Shown here one piece after another: positions 8,006 to 11,159 of a DNA stretch of 54,221 nucleotides (the first letter of the stretch is position 1; the number at the start of each line of letters is the position of its first letter). Both the position numbers and the translations under genes were made by a program. The DNA lies in the NCBI GenBank assembly GCA_019636535.1, contig JAHBXK010000023.1:1-54221 (forward strand), in the 5' to 3' direction. Below the pieces are notes generated by a model, which saw only the letters and a program-made list of their open reading frames with translations, was not told the origin of the DNA and made no database searches. This DNA comes from Phycisphaeraceae bacterium (lineage in GTDB: Bacteria; Planctomycetota; Phycisphaerae; Phycisphaerales; UBA1924).

Positions 8006-8494
8006 TCAGAACAACCGCTGCTGGTCCTTCACGTCCGACACCCGCCCGTCCAGTTCCCGCAGTTCCTCAACGAAGTCCCCCACGCTCTTGTACTTGTAGT
8101 ACTCGCTGGCGAACCGCACGTACGCGATCGGGTCGAGCGCCTTGAGTTTGGCCATCACCCGCTCGCCGATCGCGTGCGACGGCACCTCGCGGTCGAACTC
8201 GCGGTGCAGTTCCTCCTCGATGTCCGCCGCGAGCCGCTGCTTGGCCTCTTCGCTGACCGGCCGCTTGCCGATCGCCGCTGTCACCCCGCGCAGGATGTTC
8301 TCCCGGCTGAAGGGGACGTGCGTGCCGTCGCGCTTCACGACCATCAGCCGCGAGGTCTCCTCGACTCGCTCATAGGTCGTAAACCGTTTGCCGCAATCCA
8401 GGCACTCCCGCCGACGGCGCACCGCCTTCCCGGCCTCGCTGGCCCGGCTGTCGATGACCTTGTCGTCGTTATGGCCGCAGAATGGGCAGATCAT
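8006..8494 (-). CDS. nrdR: Transcriptional repressor NrdR
   Basis: Zinc-ribbon/ATP-cone repressor of ribonucleotide reductase genes, 162 aa (family norm about 150). The ribbon is intact: Cys3 and Cys6 in MICPFCGH, and Cys31 and Cys34 in RRRRECLDCGKRFTTYERVEE. The ATP-cone follows (MVVKRDGTHVPFSRENILRGV), with the later conserved YVRFASEYYKYKSVGDFVEEL. No nrd gene is in the window, so its targets lie elsewhere. The gene is divergent from the thrS leader region. The upstream stretch is strongly purine-rich on the plus strand. Confidence 0.95.
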   Translation of the reverse strand: MICPFCGHNDDKVIDSRASEAGKAVRRRRECLDCGKRFTTYERVEETSRLMVVKRDGTHVPFSRENILRGVTAAIGKRPVSEEAKQRLAADIEEELHREFDREVPSHAIGERVMAKLKALDPIAYVRFASEYYKYKSVGDFVEELRELDGRVSDVKDQQRLF

Positions 8495-8674
8495 GACTTG
8501 GCTGGGATCAATGGGCTCAAGTGCGGGATCGCATGGAGATCGCGGGCGAGTGGGGAGGACGCAGGTAGACGGGGAGAGGGCTGAGAGGGGGGACGGGAAG
8601 GGAGAGGGGGGAGGCAGAGCATAACGTCCGCGGTCGGTCCGGTCCGTCCCTCGCGACGCCTATCGTTTCCAAGC

Positions 8675-8728
8675 ATGTCGACCGGCAGGACCACAACCAC
8701 GACGCGAACCTCATCAACCCGCGGGTAG
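8675..8728 (+). CDS. Threonine-rich leader peptide of the thrS attenuator
   Basis: A 17-codon reading frame, MSTGRTTTTTRTSSTRG, with eight Thr codons including five in a row (ACC ACA ACC ACG ACG). It sits 149 bases before thrS, with a terminator hairpin in between. This is the arrangement of amino-acid leader peptides that sense charged tRNA by ribosome stalling, here tRNA-Thr. There is no Shine-Dalgarno sequence. A possible -10 hexamer TATCGT (8661-8666) ends 8 bases before the ATG, so the transcript could be leaderless. The -35 is not evident. The Thr run, stop codon and downstream pairing segments together make coincidence unlikely, but expression is not shown. Confidence 0.75.
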   Translation: MSTGRTTTTTRTSSTRG

Positions 8729-8766
8729 CCGGGCCCGCCCATCGCTCTAAGAGTCTCGAACCCGGC
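8721..8766 (+). promoter_or_regulatory. Antiterminator and competing hairpin of the thrS leader
   Basis: GCCGGG at 8728-8733, which starts on the last base of the leader stop codon, is perfectly complementary to CCCGGC at 8761-8766, the 5' arm of the terminator. A ribosome stalled on the Thr codons would leave 8728-8733 free to pair and prevent termination. A ribosome at the stop codon would cover it and allow termination. GCGGG at 8721-8725 can pair with CCCGC at 8734-8738, a hairpin that would sequester the antiterminator segment when the leader is not translated. Base pairing is read directly; the mechanism is inferred from known attenuators. Confidence 0.65.
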
Positions 8767-8790
8767 CGACGAGCCGGGTTTGTCGTTTTT
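8759..8790 (+). terminator. Attenuator terminator upstream of thrS
   Basis: An 8-bp stem (AACCCGGC 8759-8766 with GCCGGGTT 8773-8780), a six-base loop CGACGA, then TGTCG and five T. It lies 30 bases after the leader-peptide stop and 86 bases before the thrS ATG. No other plus-strand gene lies upstream that it could terminate, since nrdR is on the other strand. It therefore most likely acts as a conditional terminator for thrS. Confidence 0.8.
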
Positions 8791-8876
8791 GAGCGCTCCC
8801 GTCAGCCCCAGACGCCCCTGATTCGGCCCGTACCATCCCCGACCATCCGCCCCCCAGTCACGCCCGGACCCGACCC

Positions 8877-11159
8877 ATGCCCACCATCACCCTTCCCGAC
8901 GGCTCCCAGAAGCACTTCGAGCACCCGGTTTCCGCGGCGGACGTCGCCAAGTCCATCGGTGCCGGTCTGGCCAAGGCCGCCCTGGGGTGCAAGGTCGACG
9001 GCGAACTCCGCGACCTCTCGACCCTCCTCGACAAGGACTGCCGGCTGTCGATCGTCACCCCGACCACCCGCGACAAGAAGCAGGACCCCGATGCGCTGTT
9101 CCTGATCCGCCACTCCGCGGCCCACGTCATGGCCGAGGCGATCCAGCGGATCATCCCGGGTGCACAACTCGTGTACGGCCCGCCGCTGGAGGACAAGTTC
9201 TACTACGACATCAAGTTTCCCGACAACCGGCCCCTGAAGGACGGAGACTTCCCGGCGATCGAGGCGGAGATGGCCAAGATCGTGGCGGAGGACCGGCCGT
9301 TCACGCGGTACGAGGTCGCCGCGGATCAGGGTCTTGGTCGTCTGCTCGAAGAGAAGAACAAGTACAAGGTCGACAATGCCGTTCGTGCATTGGAGGCCCA
9401 AGCAGTGGGTTGTGCAGCTGCGATGACCGGCGTTGTCAATGCTCCGGTCTCGCACGGAACGAATCGTGTCGAAGAACGGTCATTTCGCTATCTGTCCGAC
9501 TCCACGCTCTCCTTCTACGCCACCGGTACCCCCGGCCAGAACTGGGAAGATCTCTGCCGCGGGCCCCACGTCCCATCCACCGGCCGCATCGGCGCCTTCA
9601 AGATCCTCTCCCTCGCCAGCAGTTACTGGCACGGCGACGAGAAGTCCGACCGCCTCACCCGCGTCTACGGCACCGCCTTCGCCAGCAAGGCCGACCTCGA
9701 CACGTGGCTCACCCAGCGCGAAGAGGCCGCCAAGCGCGATCACCGCGTCATCGGCAAGGCCCTGCGCCTCTTCCACATCGACGAGGACGTCGGCCAGGGC
9801 CTCATCCTCTGGACCCCCGCCGGGTCGGTGCTGCGCCAGGAACTCATGCGGTTCATCGGCGACGAACTGAACAAGCAGGGCTACCACCAGGTCTTCACGC
9901 CCCACATCGGCAAACTCGACCTCTACAAGACCTCGGGCCACTTCCCGTACTACAAGGACGCCCAGTATCCGCCGATCCCCGAGCGAGATGCGCTGGACCT
10001 GGCGATGGGCGTTGAGGGCACCCAGGCGGCCGCGCTCGCGGCGGGGCTTCCTGCAGGCGGGTGCTCTTGTGCCGAACTCATGCACAGGCTCGACGGCGTC
10101 TCCGCGCGACTCGCCGCGCAGGTGAACGAGCGCACCCAGGCACAGACCATCGGGCCCGACCGCGTGCAGCCCGACGAGCAACTCCTCGACGGCTACCTGC
10201 TCAAGCCGATGAACTGCCCGCACCACATCAAGATCTTCGCGAGCGCGCCGCACTCCTACCGCGACCTGCCCGTGCGCCTCGCCGAGTTCGGCACCGTCTA
10301 CCGCTGGGAGCAGTCGGGCGAACTCAACGGCATGACCCGCGTCCGCGGCTTCACGCAGGACGATGCGCACCTGTTCTGCACCGAGGATCAGGTGCCCGAG
10401 GAACTCCTCGGCTGCCTGAGCCTGGTCAAGACCGTGCTGACCACGCTGAACATGACCGACTACCGCGTCCGCGTCGGCCTGCGCGACCCGGACTCGAACA
10501 AGTACACCGGCAACCCGGAGAACTGGGATCGCGCTGAGCAGGCCTGCCGCTTGGCGGCCAAGTCGCTCGGCGTCCCCTTCACCGAGGAGCCCGGCGAGGC
10601 GGCCTTCTACGGCCCGAAGATCGACTTTGTCGTCCGCGACGTCATCGGCCGCGAGTGGCAACTCGGCACCGTGCAGGTCGATTACAACCTGCCGATCCGT
10701 TTCGACCTCACCTACACCGGCCCGGACAACCAGCCCCACCGACCGGTGATGATCCATCGCGCCCCGTTCGGCTCGTTCGAGCGGTTCTGCGGCGTCTTGA
10801 TCGAGCACTTCGCCGGCAGTTTCCCGACCTGGCTCAGCCCCGAGCAGGTCCGCGTGCTGCCGATCAGCGAGAAGAGCGACGGCTACGCGAAGGAAGTGCT
10901 CGGCGCTCTCAAGGTCGCGGGATGCCGGGCGACCTGCGACTTCGGCAACGACCGCATCCAGGGGAAGATCAAGGTCGCGGCGGACCTGAAGATTCCCTAC
11001 CTGTTGATCGTCGGCCCGCGCGACGCCGAGCAGCGCTCGGTTTCGGTGCGGGCTCGCGGCCAGGAGAAGGACCTGGGCTCGATGCCGCTCGACCGGTTCG
11101 TGGAGGCGATCAAGAGCGAGATCGAGACCCGCCGGGCGGATTTGGGCGTGAAGCCGTGA
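8877..11159 (+). CDS. thrS: Threonyl-tRNA synthetase
   Basis: Class II synthetase charging tRNA-Thr, in full domain order. The TGS domain starts MPTITLPDGSQKHFEHPVSAADVAKSIG. The editing (SAD) domain has RHSAAHVMAEA with its HxxxH zinc motif, plus YYDIKFP near 105. The catalytic core has KPMNCPHHIKIF near 445, RVRGFTQDDAHLFC near 485 and MIHRAPFGSFERFCGVLIEH near 625. The anticodon domain carries QVRVLPISEK near 660. Length 760 aa exceeds the usual 640. One insertion sits in the editing domain (about residues 155-205). A second of about 65 residues, Ala/Gln-rich with GLPAGGCSCAELMHRLDG, lies just before YLLKPMNCPHH. Transcription is probably controlled by the Thr-leader attenuator immediately upstream. 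Confidence 0.96.
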   Translation: MPTITLPDGSQKHFEHPVSAADVAKSIGAGLAKAALGCKVDGELRDLSTLLDKDCRLSIVTPTTRDKKQDPDALFLIRHSAAHVMAEAIQRIIPGAQLVYGPPLEDKFYYDIKFPDNRPLKDGDFPAIEAEMAKIVAEDRPFTRYEVAADQGLGRLLEEKNKYKVDNAVRALEAQAVGCAAAMTGVVNAPVSHGTNRVEERSFRYLSDSTLSFYATGTPGQNWEDLCRGPHVPSTGRIGAFKILSLASSYWHGDEKSDRLTRVYGTAFASKADLDTWLTQREEAAKRDHRVIGKALRLFHIDEDVGQGLILWTPAGSVLRQELMRFIGDELNKQGYHQVFTPHIGKLDLYKTSGHFPYYKDAQYPPIPERDALDLAMGVEGTQAAALAAGLPAGGCSCAELMHRLDGVSARLAAQVNERTQAQTIGPDRVQPDEQLLDGYLLKPMNCPHHIKIFASAPHSYRDLPVRLAEFGTVYRWEQSGELNGMTRVRGFTQDDAHLFCTEDQVPEELLGCLSLVKTVLTTLNMTDYRVRVGLRDPDSNKYTGNPENWDRAEQACRLAAKSLGVPFTEEPGEAAFYGPKIDFVVRDVIGREWQLGTVQVDYNLPIRFDLTYTGPDNQPHRPVMIHRAPFGSFERFCGVLIEHFAGSFPTWLSPEQVRVLPISEKSDGYAKEVLGALKVAGCRATCDFGNDRIQGKIKVAADLKIPYLLIVGPRDAEQRSVSVRARGQEKDLGSMPLDRFVEAIKSEIETRRADLGVKP

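Follow-up and report, generated by a model that had tools for sequence, protein, structure and literature searches.

In the enterobacterial thr operon (thrABC), an attenuator senses Thr through the Thr codons of a leader peptide, thrL, and acts by terminator control; it is represented in Rfam by the family Thr_leader. The gene for threonyl-tRNA synthetase (ThrRS), thrS, is controlled by T-boxes in Firmicutes and, in E. coli, by a translational operator with tRNA-Thr-like stem-loops to which ThrRS binds at the position of the ribosome site. Leader-peptide attenuators of synthetase genes are known for pheST in gamma-proteobacteria and for trpS and leuS in Streptomyces (PMC1262725), and histidine leader peptides precede hisS/hisZ in bacilli (PMC2965389). 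Candidate leaders in Streptomyces lividans TK24 precede alaS as well as thrS; the thrL proposed before thrS has two Thr in 18 codons and a leaderless start assigned from RNA-seq (PMC8079986). Short leader genes of Planctomycetes have been counted in relation to ribosome reinitiation, in an article whose main text is silent on thrS and on threonine (PMC4833913). A search of the open-licence literature found no description of a planctomycete thrS attenuator.

The DNA analysed here, a stretch of 54,221 nucleotides (the window), had been read in an earlier note as carrying a threonine attenuator before thrS. The coordinates and letters then given for the leader, GCCGGG, terminator, hairpin and TATCGT held when the sequence was read again, and the locus comprises the following parts.

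8006-8494, minus strand: gene upstream of and divergent from the leader, which we take from a motif to resemble nrdR
8661..8666, plus strand: -10-like hexamer TATCGT, 8 nt 5' of the leader ATG
8675..8728, plus strand: leader peptide ORF MSTGRTTTTTRTSSTRG, ATG at 8675, stop codon TAG at 8726-8728
8690..8704, plus strand: five-Thr run ACC ACA ACC ACG ACG, the presumed stall site
8721..8738, plus strand: possible stop-codon hairpin, GCGGG (8721-8725) with CCCGC (8734-8738), GCCGGG in its loop
8728..8733, plus strand: antiterminator 5' half GCCGGG, pairing with CCCGGC (8761-8766) through six pairs, all G-C
8759..8780, plus strand: intrinsic terminator stem-loop, AACCCGGC (8759-8766), loop CGACGA, GCCGGGTT (8773-8780)
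8779..8790, plus strand: T-rich tail TTTGTCGTTTTT, from the sequence and a pattern scan
8877..11159, plus strand: thrS, threonyl-tRNA synthetase, 760 aa, scoring above the TIGR00418 curated cut-off

The leader ORF has 17 codons, eight of them for Thr, and codons 6-10 are all Thr. GCCGGG begins at the last base of the leader stop codon, and its complement, CCCGGC, sits within the terminator 5' arm. The terminator stem of 8 bp is lengthened to 10 pairs (8757-8782) by the pattern scan, its T tail is interrupted, and thrS starts approximately 95 nt beyond it. The stop-codon hairpin, 5 bp as first read, has six pairs in the RNAfold drawing. The combination of TAnnnT, a 4-11 nt gap, a short ORF and a terminator (the signature) has a single occurrence on the two strands of the 54-kb window, namely the leader. 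Taken by itself, the leader has an ordinary fold (z -0.94, with 37 of 200 shuffles equally good), so the case for an attenuator rests on comparison and not on folding energy; the folding energies of the leader alone and of the stop-codon region could not be told apart from those of shuffles and were dropped as evidence.

It is very probable, from the sequence comparisons presented below, that 8661-8790 constitutes a ribosome-mediated transcription attenuator of thrS of the classical type. Transcription would start on the leader ATG or no more than a few bases from it, giving a leaderless message to which a ribosome would bind. Under a shortage of charged Thr-tRNA, the ribosome would halt on the codons of the Thr run, and GCCGGG (8728-8733) would remain available for pairing with CCCGGC (8761-8766); the terminator would not form, and RNA polymerase would read into thrS. 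When Thr-tRNA is charged, a ribosome at the stop codon would cover GCCGGG, the terminator would form, and the transcript would end near 8790. More ThrRS would lead to more charging, closing a feedback loop. The sequence comparisons show the parts and their conservation, the Thr specificity, the placing of the -10-like element and the group-wide covariation of the alternative pairing, whereas we infer the transcription start, the stalling, the termination and the response to tRNA-Thr charging.

The enterobacterial thr operon and this locus are alike in that the ribosome senses Thr codons, as predicted here, and in control at a terminator, but the former controls biosynthesis whereas the latter precedes a synthetase gene and has no Rfam match at the gathering score. 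A cognate-codon short ORF, an antiterminator and an intrinsic terminator are shared with the pheST, trpS and leuS attenuators; the locus differs from them in the synthetase (ThrRS), in its planctomycete host, a lineage not named in the available part of that article, and in Thr runs of up to nine codons in relatives (PMC1262725). The leaders of hisS/hisZ in bacilli are likewise terminator-based synthetase leaders outside Proteobacteria and Actinobacteria, but they concern His and Firmicutes, as against Thr and another phylum (PMC2965389). With S. lividans thrL the locus shares a leader ORF before thrS and a leaderless start, assigned there from RNA-seq and predicted here from DNA; thrL, however, is described as having one hairpin and no U-rich tail (PMC8079986), whereas here dozens of genomes combine extended Thr runs with a clear terminator and an antiterminator that covaries. 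The mechanism class is known, and the earlier claim of a different solution for thrS is less novel than it had seemed, since synthetase attenuators (PMC1262725) and S. lividans thrL (PMC8079986) have been published; the attenuator reading itself stood up to most of the comparative tests. With this locus, leader-peptide attenuation appears to extend to a further phylum and to a strongly conserved new target.

Of 61 genomes (that of the window and those of the same genus, family and order), 58 yielded a ThrRS, and upstream DNA was obtained from 56 relatives, leaving out G009, which is cut by a contig end. Addition of 80 named loci, 78 of them with usable upstream DNA, gave 135 thrS upstream regions with the window included, and 124 after removal of duplicates. 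A short ORF rich in cognate codons, the first hallmark of an attenuator, is present in the sequence, with Thr well ahead of other residues: runs of at least four Thr occurred in sense-strand short ORFs of 30/124 regions, compared with 7 for the runner-up, Arg. The corresponding count for Thr in 20 dinucleotide shuffles had a mean of 0.1 and a maximum of 1, and no such Thr runs were found on the antisense strand of the 124 regions. When the rule was relaxed to four Thr within eight residues, a Thr-dense leader was counted in 47 of the 124 distinct regions. The second hallmark, an intrinsic terminator between leader and gene, is present in the window and accompanied 43 of these 47 leaders, 22-45 nt past the leader stop. 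In the other four, G004, G039, G043 and L092, no terminator satisfied the scan rule, but the sequences of G039 and G043 show a terminator-like hairpin that falls outside it. The closest relative (G030, ThrRS 76% identical) has just three Thr codons. The thrS start lies up to 364 nt beyond the terminator in relatives (G013), with a small gene between in some.

This small gene was observed in G003, G011, G013 and G034 (loci L040, L039, L042 and L036, respectively); it encodes about 75 residues, contains cysteine pairs and is zinc-ribbon-like by eye. Since it stands between attenuator and thrS, the leader would head a co-regulated two-gene unit there. The Thr codons of the 43 leaders were distributed as ACC 153, ACG 129, ACT 26 and ACA 15. 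ACG, ACT and ACA together account for 170 of these 323 codons, and the window's thrS uses ACC for 32 of its 39 Thr codons. Particular tRNA-Thr species may be what the leader senses.

A search that ignored the peptide was carried out to avoid selecting for Thr. Upstream regions were scanned for the signature of TAnnnT, 4-11 nt, short ORF and terminator in a set of 184, made up of the 124 regions and 60 from a class-wide search. The signature was found in 51 of the 184 regions, and 50 of the 51 ORFs so identified were Thr-rich (at least three Thr within eight residues); the remaining ORF, in L110, was not Thr-rich and was taken as a chance hit. The signature was detected in none of the 184 antisense strands, 73 stretches within thrS or 61 stretches at 1.3-1.8 kb upstream. 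Nor was it detected at other genes of the relatives (0/30 pheS, 0/19 hom and 0/30 trpS/tyrS; 0/79 in total, where 10 of the 79 control loci had less than 1000 nt of upstream DNA and six of these less than 200), while the same kind of search found it at 13 of 29 thrS loci. In the window's own genome, no similar attenuator was found at the synthetase-family loci matching PF00587 and PF00133 or at hom. Sixty sites of five ACN units, some overlapping, occur in that genome, and among the 30 that were readable the signature was present solely at the thrS leader. A pheS match (PF01409) lies on the same contig at 2074-2811 on the plus strand, approximately 6 kb upstream of thrS; the scan detected no leader signature there. 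The signature is simple enough to serve in genome scans for further leaderless attenuators.

A leaderless start, merely suggested earlier from the spacing of TATCGT, gained support from the placement of TAnnnT hexamers in other genomes. Grouped by stop codon, the 124 regions contain 49 Thr-dense ORFs, and in 46 of them an in-frame ATG or GTG follows TAnnnT by 4-11 nt (by 6-8 nt in 32). In shuffled upstream DNA the mean was 3.8 and the maximum 10. TAnnnT precedes the thrS start itself in 10/124 regions, and Shine-Dalgarno-like motifs precede two of the 49 Thr-dense ORFs. The leader message is probably leaderless, with little or no 5' untranslated part.

The third hallmark, an antiterminator incompatible with the terminator and hidden beneath a ribosome that stands on the stop codon, is indicated by pairing and by geometry. 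A MAFFT alignment of the stop-to-terminator regions aligned the terminator but not the antiterminator, and RNAalifold recovered the terminator alone; pairing was therefore tested by swapping segments between genomes. Near copies were collapsed, which reduced the 43 leaders to 36. In the terminator, five of six aligned core pairs showed at least one compensatory change across the 36 leaders. Duplexes between the stop-side segment and the terminator 5' arm had a mean energy of -13.07 kcal/mol, against -9.62 kcal/mol for shuffled segments, and this mean was matched by 0/200 shuffles; the significance belongs to the group, as 11 of 36 segments taken singly were in the best 5% of their own shuffles. 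In the swap test with 36 leaders, segments preferred their own arm at p 0.0016, 0.0012, 0.00035 and 0.0004 for successively wider, overlapping segments, a test that does not wholly remove shared ancestry, while two control segments, one taken within the Thr codons and one farther downstream, gave p 0.30 and 0.64. An earlier run with the 36 dereplicated leaders gave p 0.0014; in a first swap test, run on all 43 leaders before near copies were collapsed, p was 0.011 and the own segment had 13 as its median rank among 43, and G040, G053, G057 and L125, whose arms are unusual, ranked 33 or worse. Matching changes were seen on the two sides: CCAGC(C) arms occur with GGCTGG at the stop (G005, L103), and CACGGC arms with GCCGTG or GCCGT (G047, L125, L150). 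Conservation of the Thr frame and of the pairing in relatives had been set beforehand as a comparison that could refute the attenuator; with Thr runs in 30/124 regions, leaders in 47/124 and these swap p values, both are conserved. The two alternative hairpins proposed earlier fared differently. Pairing of stop-side segments with the terminator arm is supported by the swaps across the group; for the stop-codon hairpin, 31/36 folds enclose the stop with three or more pairs and a GCGGG/CCCGC-type hairpin recurs by eye in several relatives, but a mean z of 0.12 and a swap p of 0.056 lend it little weight.

In modelling ribosome positions, the leading edge was assumed, after E. coli toeprints, to lie 12 nt downstream of the A-site codon's first base. 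All 43 leaders contain at least three Thr codons at which a stalled ribosome would leave the antiterminator free, and a ribosome at the stop would cover at least half of the antiterminator in 37 of 43. We then considered the RNA made before the terminator 3' arm exists, with the stall placed at the third-last Thr codon. The terminator 5' arm was predicted to be at least half paired upstream in 33/36 leaders with the ribosome stalled, compared with 16/36 with the ribosome at the stop; for the window the paired fractions were 0.80 and 0.00, respectively. At equilibrium in the full transcript, the terminator averaged 0.96 with the ribosome at the stop and 0.69 when stalled. In the window, however, it reached 0.98 in both ribosome states, a model result that counts against a simple equilibrium switch; as the terminator wins in both states, read-through would have to be kinetic.

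A leader, either Thr-dense or with the blind signature, was found in 29 of 57 order-level genomes and was absent in 28. By family (labels f1, f2 and so on are those of the search tool), leaders were present in 20/33 genomes of f1 in the order-level search and 3/7 in the class-wide search, and in 1/1 of f3, 5/6 of f4, 1/6 of f5, 2/5 of f6 and 5/10 of f11; f2 had none in six genomes. In family f15, thrS is preceded in four of seven genomes by a short ORF that packs at least five Thr into eight residues, with no terminator recognised by the scan. These ORFs (L209, L210, L212 and L215, in G069, G087, G113 and G166, respectively) have sequences such as MNTTTTTTTTC, and possibly represent a different output stage on the same sensor. 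The remaining 36 class-level regions showed no signature; a weaker Thr-containing short ORF, with no terminator, was seen in G081, G096 and G155. Outside the class, no full signature was found in the 28 genomes scanned of 74, and two of them carried a weak short ORF containing Thr, with no terminator. The best reading is that the attenuator is patchy and, within the samples taken, confined to the class of the window. Its absence from 28 order-level genomes, the three Thr codons of the closest relative and the interrupted T tail of the window count against the attenuator.

The f15 ORFs show that the Thr frame can occur apart from this kind of terminator, and S. lividans thrL, as published, also has no clear terminator (PMC8079986). 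Both observations fit an alternative in which the Thr frame acts on thrS translation or on message decay, by way of coupling or of access for Rho, and the hairpin, instead of being a regulated terminator, belongs to a 3' end or to RNA processing. We judge this alternative improbable. Against it stand a terminator at a narrow distance in 43 of 47 leaders and the covariation of the stop-side segment with the terminator 5' arm across the group; moreover, thrS begins from about 95 nt (window) to 364 nt (G013) past the terminator, with the small gene between in some genomes. Still less likely, and very improbable in our view, is that Thr-tRNA is sensed by other means, for example a T-box or an operator that binds ThrRS, with the ORF as a bystander. 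Sensors of both kinds do exist at thrS, in Firmicutes and E. coli, but neither explains the conserved Thr codons; no Rfam family reached its gathering score in the window, and neither a T-box nor the Rfam threonine operon leader was among three weak matches (E up to 10) in 8600-8900. That ACN trinucleotide repeats arose by chance or composition beside the ordinary terminator of an upstream transcript is hardly credible: the region is G+C-rich, the genome has its 60 five-ACN sites and the leader folds no better than shuffles, but the synonymous Thr codons are mixed rather than one repeated unit, the start codon directly follows a -10-like box in 46/49 ORFs, the Thr-blind signature marks thrS but none of the control sites, which speaks against chance for the group as a whole, and the upstream gene is divergent, so that the terminator cannot end its transcript.

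The preferred reading, a transcription attenuator sensed by the ribosome, has a consequence for these cells. Such an attenuator works only if a ribosome closely trails RNA polymerase, so that these planctomycetes would couple transcription with translation. For Gemmata, another planctomycete, it has been proposed that the two processes are spatially separated. On balance we favour the view that many genera of Phycisphaerae carry a leaderless, ribosome-sensed thrS attenuator and hence that transcription and translation are physically coupled in them. If the attenuator works in Phycisphaerae, it would provide genetic evidence for coupling in the class and make an open question testable.

On a tree of 78 named ThrRS sequences, the leader label requires 15 changes, 11 of them forced by well-supported branches, compared with 23.2 for shuffled labels. 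The attenuator would accordingly either have arisen early in the class, with many later losses, or have been gained repeatedly. Locus L153 (WYBR01000109.1) is labelled Vicinamibacteraceae (Acidobacteriota), but this label looks wrong because its ThrRS groups with Phycisphaerales and the attenuator is present. L155 (Spirochaetes) and L162 (Acidobacteria) are also among the best 80 ThrRS matches despite labels from other phyla. Finally, the ThrRS match contains one internal stop codon in G065, G105 and G132 (TGA) and in G104 and G110 (TAG), where the match could run past the end of the gene.
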